A stretch of DNA of 28,977 bases from Cladosporium sp. IMV 00045 (taxonomy: Eukaryota; Ascomycota; Dothideomycetes; Cladosporiales; Cladosporiaceae). Both the position numbers and the translations under genes were made by a program. The stretch is from the NCBI GenBank assembly GCA_001931905.2, contig MSJI02000531.1, forward strand, positions 1 to 28,977. Direction: 5' to 3'. Numbering within the stretch: position 1 is the first letter of the stretch; every line of letters begins with the position of its first letter. A model generated the notes under the pieces. It did not search any database. It saw only the letters and a program-made list of their open reading frames with translations, and was not told the origin of the DNA. Positions 1 to 5,434 of this stretch are shown here, one piece after another.

Positions 1-720
1 TTTACCGATATCTTTTACTCGGCCGACCTCGCTCTCGCTTACCCGCGACTATCCTCCTATACTCCTTAATCGCCGCTTTATACTAAATATTATCGTTTAC
101 TACTATCTTTAAGAACCGCCTCGAAATCGCTCGCTATCGTAGTCTCGAGTAAGTAAGAATAACCCGTAGTAAGTAGACTACTAGGTAGATTAGGCTCGCT
201 AATAGTAGGCGTAGGAACGGTTAAGGTAGTTAAGCGGTAAAAGCGCCGAGAAAGACTATTAAGAGTAGTAAAAATATAAAGGCGGTAAAGGCTTAGTAGA
301 TATAGGGCTAGGGGGGGTATCGCCGTAGGTAGAAGCTAGGAAGTAAGTAAAACCGTAGCCGGTAAAGCGTAGCCGGTACTCGCTAACGATTAATCTAGCT
401 ATCGCTCTCCGTAAGATCCGTCGCTACTAGAAGACGACCGATCTCCTTATCCCTAAGACCTTATTCGCGCGCCTATACCGTAAAGTTACGTAGGACGTAA
501 GCGTCTTAGGTTAAGATTTACGCTTTACTACGACTATATTAGGTGCGATTTAGGAGGTAGCTAAGGCGTTTCTAGTCTCCTAATTTAAAAGTAAGTAAAA
601 TGATTAACGATTTATATAGCGATTAATACTAATCTAGATTTCTTAGTAGTAAACCTAGCTACTATCTACGTAAAGCGCGTAACTATTATATAGAAGGATT
701 TCTAATTAATTAATAGGCTG
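1..720. repeat. RIP-mutated repeat block (left end outside window)
   Basis: Positions 1-543 contain no CpA and no TpG dinucleotide at all, on either strand by definition, where some 65-70 would be expected by chance. CpG is still frequent and TpA is very common. The first TpG is at 544-545, the next at 600-601 and 719-720; from about 735 onward CpA and TpG are normal again. Loss of CpA/TpG in favour of TpA, with CpG left alone, is the signature of repeat-induced point mutation in Pezizomycotina, which acts on duplicated DNA during the sexual cycle. The block therefore marks a sequence that existed in at least two copies. It covers the histone-like pseudogene described separately and continues beyond the window. 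Confidence 0.93.
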
Positions 721-765
721 CGTAAGAGTATAACTAGGCAGCGAATCGGCATAATAATGGAGTAA
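2..765 (+). pseudogene. RIP-inactivated histone H3-like gene, probably CenH3 type
   Basis: In the frame with codons starting at 407, 410 and so on, the raw sequence reads ALRKIRRY-stop-KTTDLLIPK (404-457), then R-x-x-R-K-V-T-stop-D, LRF, and a block ending F-L-V-S-stop-F. Stops at 428, 491, 512, 551 and 581 each become Gln by one TAG/TAA to CAG/CAA change, the change RIP makes. This matches the H3 alpha-N helix (ALREIRRYQK), alpha-1, and alpha-2 (ALQEASEAYLV). GTAAGT at 591, a TACTAAT branch site at 627 and TTAG ending at 646 mark a 56-nt intron. The second exon (647-765) reads N-L-A-T-I-H-A-K-R-V-T-I-M after reversion, the H3 C-terminal block. Loop 1 is about three residues longer than in canonical H3, which favours a centromeric variant. 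The frame stays open upstream to the window edge once RIP stops are discounted, so the N-terminal tail is long, Gln/Arg/Lys-rich and of unknown start. Confidence 0.85.
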
Positions 766-1416
766 AAATGGGTTATTATCATGTATTATAGGCGACGATT
801 AAACGATTAATTAAGTAATAACTATATTAAATGAAGTTTGGATTTTGGCACTTTAGTATTTTTCATGTTTTTGGCACTTTTGTAGGTATGGCCGACCGTC
901 ATTACCGAGGCCCCTTCACGCTGAAACGTCGACTTGTTGGCGGCAACCGAGGTACAACAAGCCCCAAGGAGAGGGGAGACGCAGAGGCGCTCTTGAACCA
1001 TTACTACCCACGAGGGTGCCACGCGGTTATGGACTAGCTGAGCCTCTCAAGATGGGCTCGCTTCCGTGTCGTTTCCTGCGATGCTACGCAGAATGATCGC
1101 TTTACCCCGCGTAACCCCAGATGCCAACCCCGGTTTCTGTCTTCAACCGAGCCACTACTCTCCCAAGCCTCTTAGCATTGCCACTTGGAGGCTCCTGGGC
1201 GAGTGCTGATAGGATCAAACTGCCCGTGAGGCGACCTGCCGATATTGCTTCCAAGAACGTGCCCAGGAACACAGATCTGCTTGCGTCTTCGATAACTTAG
1301 ATATCATGGCTATGTAAGTGACATTGCTCCGCTCTTTTTGAGATGATCGAAACAGGCTTACGACTCGTTCGTCAGCTTTTCCATTTTTCATTCTGAACTT
1401 TTGGGATCGATAGAAA
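766..1416. other. Intergenic region upstream of the first MFS gene
   Basis: This is the border between the RIP-mutated block and normal-composition DNA. I see no convincing coding sequence: the two short opposed reading frames at about 822-1037 have no recognisable content and no splice context. The right part presumably holds the promoter of the transporter that starts at 1417. No tRNA-like fold or repeat was recognised. Confidence 0.5.
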
Positions 1417-3347
1417 ATGGCTACCGAGAAGGAAGATGTCAGTCACCTGGAGCAAGCGAAGGAAGATTTGCCGGCTACCTCGACAAGAAACCCCGGCGAA
1501 GCCCTTGACGATGACCCAGTTTACACGTACAAACAGCAGCGCAAGATCATCCACCGTGTCGACATTCGCCTCATCACCGTCGCTGGAATCATCTACATGA
1601 ATAGTCTGATGGACCGATCGAACCTGCCGAACGCGGGCATCGCGGGCATGCGTACCGACTTGGAGATGGTGAATTCTAGATATGTCGGTTGCATCTACAT
1701 CTGAACATTGAAGCAAACCGTAGCGCTAATGAACTCGCTGCAGTCGATTGTCGCTCTCGTATTCTTCATTACCTACACCTTCCTTCAACCTCCCGCCACG
1801 CTCCTCACCCGAAAATTCGGACCGAGACTCTTCCTGTCATCGATTTGCTTCGCCTGGGGTGTCGTCATGGTGGGTAAAAGTCATAAAACAGGTTGAGTGG
1901 CCATTTCTGATCGGATCACACAGGTCGGCTTTTCGTTTGTCACCGAATGGTGGGAATTGGTACCCTTGCGACTGGTCCTGGGTGTCTTTGAAGCTGGATA
2001 CTTTCCCGGAGTCGTGTACCTCATCTCCACCTGGTATACGAGATACGATATGGGTAAGTGATGTCTACCACTCGAATAGTTCTAGTTCATGGTGATTGAC
2101 ATGAGCTTTTTGCGAAACAGGGAAAAGATATGCTTGCTTTGTAGGTTTAGCCCGAGTCACAATGTCATCTTTCGCCTTGCTGATGAGACTTCTAGTACGC
2201 TCTCGGCCTCGTTGCCTCTGGCTGTTCTGGCATCCTTGCATATGGTCTACAGCAACTGGTGTGTGCAATCGAAGCCATTAACGATAAAAGTCACCTTACT
2301 AACAACATGACACAGGCTGGTGAAGGTGGACTCGAAGGATGGAGATGGATTTTCCTCGTATTCGGACTTCTGACCGTAGCTGCTGCATTTCTTGGGTTTG
2401 CTTTCCTGGTTGACTTCCCCGACCGAGCAATCAACAAGAAATACTACGGCTTCATCAACAGCGATGAGATTGCATTCATCATCCGCCGTATCAATAAGGA
2501 TCGAGACGATGCAGGAGCCGAGCCTTGGAACTTCATGAAGTGGCTGGCTGCCGGCAAAGATTGGAAGATCTGGACATTCGCTCTGCTCTTCTTGTAAGAT
2601 AACCAGTCTACTGCTTGCGGAGTATTTGCTTACCTGACGTTGAACAGTTCTCTGACCACGCAAGCTTACTCCCTGGCTTACTTCCTTCCGATCATCCTCA
2701 ATGAGACCTTGGGATACGACATTGGGATGTCTCAGTTATTGAGTGCTCCGCCGTACGGCTTCGCTGGCATCGTCATGTACGCCTGTGCATGGGTCGGTGA
2801 TCGATACAAGTTTCGTGGCCCAGTCATCGTCTTCCTTGCGTGTTTAGGCATCATTGGGACCCCAATTCTCGTACGACTCATCCGAAAGAATTCACATTGG
2901 CATATGCTGACTCATTACAGCGCTGGGCAACCAACCCTGGCGTCCGTTATTTCGGCATCTTTCTCATTTGCTGCACAGCCAACGGTGGAATACCTGCAGT
3001 AATGGCCTACCAAGCAAACAACATCCGCGGCCAGTGGAAACGAGCCTTTGCCTCTGCCACGCTCGTCGGCTTTGGTGGCATTGGCGGAATCGCAGGCTCC
3101 ACCATTTTTCGAGCTGAGGACTCTCCCGTAAGTTGACAATCTCAGTCGCGACGCACAAAAGACTTTTCCTGACTAACACCTTCAACCTCAGGACTACGAT
3201 CTGGGCATTATCTTCTGTCTTTGTGTAAACGTTCTGATGATCGTAATCGTTGCAGTCAACGCAATTATCTTCAGACGGCAGAACAAACGAGCAGACCGCG
3301 GAGAAATCGTCCTCGAAGGCGATCCAAATTTCCGCTACACACTTTGA
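1417..3347 (+). CDS. MFS transporter, ACS (Dal5/Tna1-like) family
   Basis: This is a plasma-membrane permease of the anion:cation symporter family, which imports small organic anions and vitamins such as nicotinate, pantothenate, allantoate or sulfonates; the substrate cannot be read from sequence. Proposed exons are 1417-1683, 1744-1869, 1924-2053, 2121-2140, 2196-2258, 2316-2593, 2648-2870, 2921-3127 and 3192-3347, giving 489 residues, normal for about 12 membrane segments. Family marks in order are MDRSNLPNAGIAG near helix 1, FFITYTFLQPPATLLTRK, RLVLGVFEAGYFPGVVYL, GLEGWRWIF, SLAYFLPIIL, MAYQANNIRGQWKRAF, and the tail GEIVLEGDPNFRYT. All introns are GT-AG and 50-67 nt, several with TACTAAC/CTGAC branch sites; the first donor is weak (GTCGGT). 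The fourth exon is only 20 nt. The ATG at 1417 gives a normal polar N-terminus. Tna1-like members are the closest I recall. Confidence 0.9.
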
Positions 3348-3774
3348 TCTTAAGATACCATAAATGGAAGAGACATCAGATTCGCGAATTCGCTAAAGTG
3401 TACATCAAAGCTTGTGATTCGCAGCGATACGCGATATTCCATCTCGTCAGAACAGCCCATGTCTCCATGGTCACATCAATCGGTAGCGAGCGCTTACCCA
3501 AAAGTGAGGCTGACGTGCAGATTTGCCAAGTGCACAAGACTTGTTCCCTTCAAAGCCCGTTGACATGTATGGATAGCTGCCTAAGATTAGCGAGCTGACG
3601 CATTGCTCTCAGCCACACGAATCAGCCCCAATCATTTGCCATCTTCTCTGCGTCTGGGATGGTGGGGCGTGTTTTGGATAACTTGCATGTCAGCGCAGCT
3701 CCAGATTTTGTTCAGAGAACGCTTCAATCCCTCCGACAGCGCTGTGGACAATCGAAAATTCGTCGAGAAGCACG
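3348..3774. other. Intergenic region, no gene seen
   Basis: This stretch holds the 3' flank of the transporter and DNA leading to the broken membrane-protein fragment. Several overlapping short reading frames exist, but none resembles a known protein or shows matching splice sites. Confidence 0.45.
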
Positions 3775-3969
3775 ATGTTTTCACCTTTCGGCAATACTAC
3801 CGTTCTCCCCCCCGCTGAATGGCACCCGGAGCCACAGTTTCGAGGGACCTTCAGCATCCTTTCGACCTGCTTGATAACCATGTCGCTGTGCATTTGGACT
3901 TCGCTGCATCTCAATCTTCCAGAGCACAAAAAGGGAGACTCGCAAGGTTATCGGAAGTTGCGATGGATG
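3775..3969 (+). pseudogene. Truncated fragment of a fungal integral membrane protein
   Basis: The ATG at 3775 opens a frame containing W-H-P-E-P-x-x-RGTFSILSTC (from 3820), then TMSLCIWTSLHLNLPEHKK and a lysine/arginine stretch ending KLRWM. I recognise this W-x-x-x-P-x-x-RGT-x-x-ILxSC ... LCxWTxxHLN-P arrangement from the first membrane segment of a large family of uncharacterised fungal membrane proteins, usually 400-600 residues long. After about residue 65 the similarity stops, and the sequence becomes the leader of the oxidoreductase that starts 64 bp further on. No continuation exon is visible. I read it as the 5' remnant of a gene cut by deletion or by insertion of the neighbour; a short functional peptide is less likely. 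Confidence 0.6.
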
Positions 3970-4033
3970 GTGCTTCCCTGTGATTCCCGGCAAATTTGTC
4001 AATATCCTACTTTCACCAATTTTCGAAAGCACA

Positions 4034-5434
4034 ATGGCTACAGAACAACACTTTGACGTTGTGATTCTGGGATCTGGTCAAGCTGGCAACAGCCTCCTTG
4101 CTTTCTTCGCTTCCTCCGGCAAAAGCGTCGCTCTCGTTGAGCGTGAAATGATAGGTGGAGCCTGTCCAAATGTCGCTTGTCTTCCGAGCAAGAACCTGAT
4201 TCATTCGGCGAAGACCGTACAAGAGGTCAAGCTGGCTCAACAGACCGGTCTCTGCAAGCTTGAGGTTGGAAAGATCGACTTTGGCATGGCGATAGAAAGG
4301 AAGCGCTTAATGGTGCAGACGCTTTGGGACCGCCACGTTGCTGGGTTTGCAAAGGCTGGAGCCGTCACATTCTTTGGTCAAGGATGCTTCTTGGGACCGA
4401 AGACTCTCAAGGTCGAATGTGAAGATGAATCCTGCATCATTACTGGAGACACCATGATCATTAACCTAGGCACCACTGCCCGCATTCCTGATATCCCTGG
4501 TCTGCTTGCGTCTTCGCCATTGACTCACATTCAAGCGCTTGAGCTGGACGATGTGCCTGGTCATCTTCTCATCCTTGGTGGCGGCTACGTTGGGATCGAG
4601 TTTGCCCAGATGATGAGGCGATTTGGCGCTCAAGTCAGCATTATCGACCACAACGACCGGATTCTCAAACACGAAGACGCAGACGTCTCAACCGCAGTCA
4701 TGGACATGCTCTCAGCTGAAGGCATCAGGTTTCATCTTTCTGCAAACGTTACTCTCGTGGAAGGCCAATCCGGAAATCACCTCACCTTGAAGTTCTCCAA
4801 AGCCGGCAAAGAGAACTCGATTTCTGGGACGCATCTTCTCTGTGCCACAGGGCGCGTGCCGAATACATCAGGTATTGGCCTGGCAGAGTCCGGCATCAAG
4901 CTTGATGGGAACGGGTACATCCTCGTCGATGATCGCCTCCAGACCAACGTCAAGGGTGTCTTCGCAGTCGCCGAGTGTGCTGGTAGCCCGCACTTCACAC
5001 ATGTCTCGATCGATGACGGCAGGGTAGTGCAAAGCTTTTTCCTGAACGGCGAAATGCGGAAGTCTGCAGCCAACAGGTTGGTGCCCAGCACTCTGTTCAC
5101 ATCGCCCGAGCTTGCGCACGTCGGCGTACGCGAGCATGAGCTGAAAGCCAAAGGCGTCGAATATCGCTTGGGCAAGGTGTCTGCGGGAAGTCTGTTGCGT
5201 AATCTGGCGACGGGGGAGACCGAAGGTTTCCTCAAAGTGATGGTTGCAGCAGATACCGATGAGATTCTTGGATTCACGGCATTGAGTGCGCAATCAGGGG
5301 AGATGCTGCTGCCGATACAGCTGGCAATGCAACATGAGATCCCATATACGGACATCATGGACACCATGATCTGCCACCCTACTTACTCCGAGGGTCTGCT
5401 CGCTCTTTTTGCAACGGTACCTCCGAGGAAGTAG
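4034..5434 (+). CDS. FAD pyridine-nucleotide disulfide oxidoreductase, mercuric reductase-like
   Basis: This is a class I flavin disulfide oxidoreductase of 466 residues, related to dihydrolipoamide dehydrogenase and mercuric reductase, that passes electrons from NAD(P)H through FAD and a cysteine pair to an unknown substrate. The order of parts is: FAD-binding Rossmann GSGQAGNS (residues 13-20); redox motif GGACPNVACLPSKN with Cys44 and Cys49; NAD(P)-binding GGGYVGIE near residue 180; second FAD contact ATGRVPN; a GVFAVAECAG motif where GD/DC is usual; and C-terminal HPTYSE with the His-Glu pair of the dimerisation domain. The N-terminal heavy-metal domain of true MerA and its C-terminal vicinal cysteines are absent, so mercury reduction should not be assumed. 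I chose the ATG at 4034 because an upstream in-frame ATG at 3980 adds a non-family extension. The gene has no intron and lies 687 bp downstream of the MFS gene on the same strand. Confidence 0.88.
   Translation: MATEQHFDVVILGSGQAGNSLLAFFASSGKSVALVEREMIGGACPNVACLPSKNLIHSAKTVQEVKLAQQTGLCKLEVGKIDFGMAIERKRLMVQTLWDRHVAGFAKAGAVTFFGQGCFLGPKTLKVECEDESCIITGDTMIINLGTTARIPDIPGLLASSPLTHIQALELDDVPGHLLILGGGYVGIEFAQMMRRFGAQVSIIDHNDRILKHEDADVSTAVMDMLSAEGIRFHLSANVTLVEGQSGNHLTLKFSKAGKENSISGTHLLCATGRVPNTSGIGLAESGIKLDGNGYILVDDRLQTNVKGVFAVAECAGSPHFTHVSIDDGRVVQSFFLNGEMRKSAANRLVPSTLFTSPELAHVGVREHELKAKGVEYRLGKVSAGSLLRNLATGETEGFLKVMVAADTDEILGFTALSAQSGEMLLPIQLAMQHEIPYTDIMDTMICHPTYSEGLLALFATVPPRK

Follow-up and report, generated by a model that had tools for sequence, protein, structure and literature searches.

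The window, by which we mean the whole stretch of 28,977 nucleotides analysed here, is contig C528 in full from the Cladosporium sp. IMV 00045 assembly (49.87 Mb, 954 contigs) and has a G+C content of about 53%. At its left edge lies an H3-like histone gene broken by stops, within the right-hand end of a RIP-damaged repeat that is very probably a DNA transposon (Table 1). The left part of the element is missing from the window because the contig begins inside the element. From 1300 to 28977 the window appears to hold ordinary un-RIPped genes; by eye, a transporter-like gene occupies about 1420–3400 and an oxidoreductase-like ORF 3878–5434.

Table 1. Features at the left edge of the window
Feature	Position	Strand	Basis
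Right-hand (3′) end of RIP-damaged DNA transposon (very probable)	1..900	+	29 readable 3′ ends stop at the same place
Extreme RIP tract, CpA/TpG almost absent	1..765		Dinucleotide ratios
Exon 1 of H3-like gene: tail (no start codon assigned) and helices alpha-N, 1 and 2	2..590	+	PF00125 match 398–586
Predicted 56-nt intron, GTAAGT...TACTAAT...TTAG	591..646	+	Signals kept in both subfamilies
Exon 2: helix 3 and C-terminus, TAA at 763–765	647..765	+	In frame once spliced; conserved in the other subfamily
Right terminal inverted repeat, 31–34 bp	867..900		Matches the inverted left end of other copies
ATTAC, right copy of 5-bp target duplication	901..905		At the same point of sister site C274; 5-bp duplications at other copies

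The H3-like gene

RIP has changed this end of the contig severely. The TpA/ApT ratio of window 1–765 is 2.2 and its (CpA+TpG)/(ApC+GpT) ratio 0.07; in 765-base tiles over the remaining window the first ratio never exceeds 0.76 and the second never falls below 0.98. The outer part of the element is nearly spared, with a (CpA+TpG)/(ApC+GpT) ratio of 0.87 in 766–900 versus 0.07 in 1–765. CA/TG words survive at the left ends of copies C457 and C692 too.

The frame from base 2 reads ALRKIRRY*KTTDLLIPKTLFARL...DLRF...AI*E..AKAFLVS*F (asterisks are stops). Exon 1 closes at 590 with ...AKAFLVS*FK, and the translation of exon 2 is VNLATIYVKRVTII*KDF*LINRLRKSIT. When the exon 1 stops are taken as Gln, the histone family PF00125 is found at 42.3 bits, over its cut-off of 26.4. 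The first-pass annotation had called a RIP-destroyed H3-like gene here, and the corrected histone fold together with the dinucleotide ratios bears it out. The limits it gave, 2..765, are right for the gene, but the repeat itself extends as far as 900 and, on the other side, past the contig edge at base 1.

The stop-free protein P0004 (82 aa, 88% identical to a sister copy over 55% of the query) allows the original residues at the damaged codons to be read. The exon 1 part of the fold contains five stops, all of which had been expected to revert to Gln. Four have a counterpart in P0004, and each is Gln there (RRFQK, VAQD, AIQE and VSQF); the fifth falls within loop 1, at a position that P0004 lacks. 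Loop 1 was expected to exceed that of H3 by about three residues, and it is indeed three residues longer in the subfamily of the window (A) and two residues longer in the other (B). The TAA closing exon 2 may be either a true stop or a RIP stop. The 56-nt intron is predicted from its signals; the donor is unchanged in the other subfamily, where the branch site is CTAAT, the acceptor ATAG and the intron body diverged.

The tail, which has no assigned start codon, contains nothing that clearly corresponds to the H3 N-terminus. The first-pass annotation described it as long, Gln-rich and unlike canonical H3; its Gln-richness is uncertain, because a RIP TAG can derive from CAG or TGG and because the tail of the sister subfamily differs.

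Transversions between C948 and the right part of C655, which belong to different subfamilies, number 23 in the 94 codons of the fold (5, 5 and 13 at the three codon positions) and 50 in the 82 codons of the tail (18, 11 and 21). Upstream of the tail, change has likewise been slow, with 10 transversions in 47 codons. This pattern suggests that the histone fold was under constraint before RIP; the evidence is modest, since it comes from a single pair of copies.

Copies, inverted ends and sister sites

At least 29 readable 3′ ends of the repeat are present in the assembly, every one ending at the position of window 900, and the left 2 kb of the element gives at least 25 matches, all 25 with an identical left start. 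Both counts are lower bounds, and they far surpass the two copies of the H3-like gene that had been postulated as a minimum. A genome scan reading through stops returned 17 PF00125 matches with stops, and all 17 are copies of this repeat (window copy 33.3 bits, E 1.9e-6; best copy E 1.0e-8). With host H3 as the query (E up to 1), C872, C930, C692, a piece on C18 (E 0.005) and C446 (E 0.72) were added. Some histone fold is present in 22 of the 29 copies whose 3′ end can be read; the remaining seven do not begin until window position 530 or beyond. All 22 histone matches carry at least one stop. The genome search for an intact copy and for relics, which the first-pass annotation had proposed, thus yielded many relics, but among the copies in the assembly no complete undamaged element was found.

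The terminal sequence of the element is AAGGG..CCGTC, and its inverted ends match over 31 bp at 97% identity, starting three bases inside the edge. Two copies can be laid out whole without N, C457 24397–31262 (6866 bp) and C692 82505–76130 (6376 bp). Seventeen left ends were tried for target duplications, of which 16 were readable (C693 was not). Fifteen of these 16 have a 5-bp word in common with a right flank, where about 0.45 would be expected by chance over the 16 x 29 pairs; the left end of C118 has no right-flank partner. Left and right ends lie on one contig in three of the 15 pairs (C457, C692 and C872) and on two contigs in the rest, as expected where an assembler breaks inside a repeat. 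The left end of C419 matches two right flanks, and the sister site backs C655, not C292. The layout of scaffold C655 is a chimera, in which the left part of one insertion is linked across a gap to the right part of a different one.

A fixed 3′ end with variable 5′ ends would also fit a non-LTR (LINE) retrotransposon that was 5′-truncated at insertion. The left edges of eight internal short copies were inspected: N runs adjoin five of them (C295, C320 and C339 have none), and seven further short copies begin at a contig edge. Together with the inverted ends, the target duplications, the fixed left ends and the DDE transposase described below, this refutes the LINE reading, which was dropped and to which we give virtually no weight.

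Two copies have an unusual arrangement. The C18 copy (L023/L025) falls into two parts that overlap by 4 bases and are separated by some 414 bases, probably another insertion. On C841 (L028 1025–1479 and 1853–2306) a 456-base direct repeat, 97% alike, stands on either side of a short copy with an N gap, and may represent an unresolved empty and filled allele.

The assembly contains two subgenomes about 92% alike (92.6% at the H3 locus, 92.0% at the CenH3 locus and 92.7% at the window locus) and looks like that of a hybrid or diploid. H3 and CenH3 each occur twice in the genome, and the subgenome pair is seen at window 1100–5000 versus C274:13681–17055. On the sister contig C274 the homology with the window starts at base 900, with ATTAC at the junction, and the element is absent beside it; this comparison is one-sided because the left flank of the window is unassembled.

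Fourteen of the 29 right flanks were searched for a second genomic place, which was found for 13 and not for C194. The last 300 bases of the element are absent within about 1.5 kb at all 13 second places. Seven of them, found with the right flanks of C655, C446, C692, C165, C845, C850 and C948, show the two flanks joined across just one copy of the target word. The other six offer one flank or a weak match; that of C71, with a similarity of just 69%, is perhaps a paralogue. The absence of the element at all 13 sister places means that the tested insertions postdate the lineage split, or arose separately in each lineage. A mobile H3 variant had been suspected from the window alone, and the inverted ends, 5-bp duplications and empty sister sites establish the mobility.

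The same observations, with the linked transposase, refute a free-standing duplicated histone gene killed by RIP without any transposon. Such a gene would fit the histone fold and RIP taken alone, and it now has almost no probability.

The transposase and related elements

Near the left end, the read-through translation of C457 scores 32 bits against PF24764 ('Integrase core domain'; cut-off 26), and that of C692 reaches 17.5 bits. A match of the transposase to rve is sub-threshold. PF24764 alone searched against the own genome gave no match, and control genomes likewise gave none. A protein search found two stop-free relatives, P0002 and P0003, both with PF24764. P0002 (389 aa) aligns without gaps over all its residues to C457, C655 and C692, at 59, 65 and 56% identity. 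By comparison with retroviral-type integrases we take its catalytic residues to be D47, D106 and E148. In the three copies E148 has become Lys throughout, D106 is Asn in C655 and C692, and D47 is kept. The one PDB match to P0002 had an E of 0.13, and amino-acid identity between the subfamilies, compared by frame, weakly favoured the transposase frame. Transposition by the DDE transposase acting on the inverted ends is well supported.

In the middle region Pfam gave only matches under the cut-offs and no recognisable family, for which reason its gene is left unnamed; by eye the best reading is perhaps one gene on the opposite strand. We are confident that window 1–900 is the right end of a RIP-killed TIR DNA transposon of 6.4–6.9 kb, with a PF24764 DDE transposase at the left, an uncharacterised middle and an intron-containing H3-like gene at the right; this confidence applies to the anatomy and identity of the element.

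Two hAT lineages of DNA transposons with H3 genes, either RIPped or intact, have been described before (PMC3538342, PMC6710886). The first is a 5.6-kb hAT of Pyrenophora tritici-repentis with a transposase, a central ORF and an H3-like gene, H3L (Manning et al. 2013, PMC3538342). Its H3L occurs in 26 nearly identical copies over both forms of the element, and it is reported to fall in 'neither group' of H3 or CenH3, with no complete match to either (PMC3538342). The present element resembles it in the inverted ends, in the succession of a transposase, a central ORF of unknown function and an H3-like gene, and in its tens of copies; the Pyrenophora element differs in being a hAT of 5.6 kb with nearly identical, mostly open copies, H3L having been compared by its description in the accessible text (PMC3538342).

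The second group comprises hATs of Pseudocercospora, Cercospora and Sphaerulina that carry H3 (Dhillon et al. 2019, PMC6710886). The available part of that report gives the H3-carrying hAT of P. fijiensis as about 9.5 kb, with DUF659, 20-bp inverted ends and 8-bp duplications, describes the H3 cargo of this type as captured intronless and present in hundreds of copies, and reports these hATs as without similarity to the Pyrenophora hAT (PMC6710886). The element described here likewise bears H3-like cargo in a DNA transposon with all copies RIPped and the host H3 intact; unlike the Pseudocercospora hATs it has an integrase-type transposase, 5-bp duplications and an intron in the histone gene (PMC6710886, as far as its available text shows). 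No hAT family was found in the forward frames of C457 and C692 or in the reverse frames of the C457 middle, a test limited by the heavy RIP, and the duplication is of 5 bp instead of the 8 bp of hATs.

The IS3EU elements, among them Styx of Zymoseptoria and TET/JBP-carrying families, similarly combine an integrase-type DDE transposase with cargo in fungi (PMC10045372, PMC10853768, PMC12730594; available parts). IS3EU elements have TA..TA ends and usually 6-bp duplications according to the available text of PMC10045372, unlike the AAGGG..CCGTC ends and 5-bp duplications found here. No histone cargo was found in the accessible portions of these accounts of IS3EU (PMC10045372, PMC10853768, PMC12730594). 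Among the papers listed in literature searches on histone-carrying transposons were the two hAT reports, but none with an H3-like gene in an integrase-type transposon. New in the present element are the different transposase class, the intron-bearing H3 gene, the distinct H3-like family and the subgenome-specific insertions.

The kind of histone and its possible use

The host H3 (C860, C896) has an open frame that is truncated where the contig begins. The host also has its own CenH3-like pair, C209/C909, with two introns by eye, a long loop 1 and the motif RWQ. A Trp before helix 2 (RWQ) is typical of CenH3. The copies of the element and P0004 have RF at this place. The longer loop 1, another feature of CenH3, is present in the element (+3/+2), and loop 1 is also longer in several rows other than CenH3.

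A histone query found six proteins, including P0004 and P0005 (H3-like, Watsoniomyces obsoletus), and 20 sequences were taken from the best 120 of 7939 matches of a profile search. Two features are common to the element and seven H3-like proteins (P0005, P0076, P0078, P0088, P0084, P0087 and P0105): Pro-Lys in place of Arg-Lys after the DLL/ELL/DLI of helix 1, and an acidic or Gln residue before the FE ahead of helix 3. A C-terminal TG occurs in seven of the nine rows that reach the C-terminus, and is absent from the window's subfamily and P0088. These H3-like proteins of Watsoniomyces, Geoglossum and Talaromyces are open and without stops, whereas the copies of the element carry stops. At least four (P0005, P0076, P0078 and P0088) come from the Watsoniomyces obsoletus assembly, three of them on contigs under 9 kb, and they are perhaps a repeat family as well.

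The tree comprises 29 rows and 94 columns; it has long branches and RIP-damaged element rows, and the group was named after the motifs had been seen. A divergent protist row (P0009) and a row with a duplicated end (P0086) were excluded beforehand. In this tree the element joins the H3-like proteins from Watsoniomyces, Geoglossum and Talaromyces (95/97); H3 lies outside this group, as does CenH3, whose rows cluster by themselves (93/93).

The first-pass annotation had called the gene probably a centromeric H3 variant, and this identification is not supported: the element falls in a separate H3-like group (95/97), its host has a CenH3-like pair of its own, and RF stands where RWQ would be. A transposon-borne CenH3 could steer the element or its chromatin to centromeres. 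The longer loop 1 and a helix 2 of the AEAFLV type, like that of host CenH3, would suit it, and forcing the element together with CenH3 costs 9.4 log units at a p-AU of 0.13, which does not reject that grouping and makes CenH3 descent less likely. Against it stand the separate groups in the tree, the lack of RWQ and the location of the copies examined, in what appears to be normal genic DNA matched by a collinear sister site. We consider a centromeric role improbable. Judged from motifs and tree, the histone of the element is probably not CenH3; it appears to be a third type of H3, distinct from the canonical one as well.

We infer that, until RIP struck, the element carried the histone gene as functional cargo. 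The helices and residues by which H3 contacts H4 and a second H3 are kept in the element histone, which makes a hybrid nucleosome plausible. The element histone would then partner host H4 and be built into nucleosomes, either on the element itself or in chromatin close by. Its altered tail would make this chromatin a poor substrate for H3K9-type silencing, and the transposase gene could thereby remain expressed. Cargo linked to silencing has a precedent among fungal DNA transposons in the TET/JBP genes, which are carried by elements of many classes and are read by the author, in the available part of PMC12730594, as an aid in escaping methylation-based silencing. We put forward, tentatively, that the element-encoded H3 may blunt H3K9-type silencing.

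Passive transduplication would instead have a host H3-type gene picked up by accident and carried without benefit. The H3 genes in hAT elements are described in this way in the available parts of PMC3538342 and PMC6710886, and the fast divergence of the tail is consistent with it. However, the fold changed more slowly than the tail and its changes are concentrated at third codon positions, both subfamilies retain the intron signals, and H3-type cargo is now present in at least three transposon lineages. We regard accidental capture as a serious possibility, if not a probable one, with roughly the same likelihood as the anti-silencing use.

Two hAT lineages with H3 cargo could be due to chance, whereas a third from an unrelated class points to use. 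The third lineage, the intron-bearing H3 gene and the signs of constraint on the fold together indicate a use for the cargo. It is conceivable, albeit rather doubtful, that Ascomycetes hold a third branch of H3 apart from H3 and CenH3, mobile on DNA transposons and making chromatin that escapes silencing, and that H3 has been taken up for this purpose at least three times by unrelated transposon classes. The natural proteins P0004, P0005 and P0087 allow testing whether transposon-encoded histones fight silencing.
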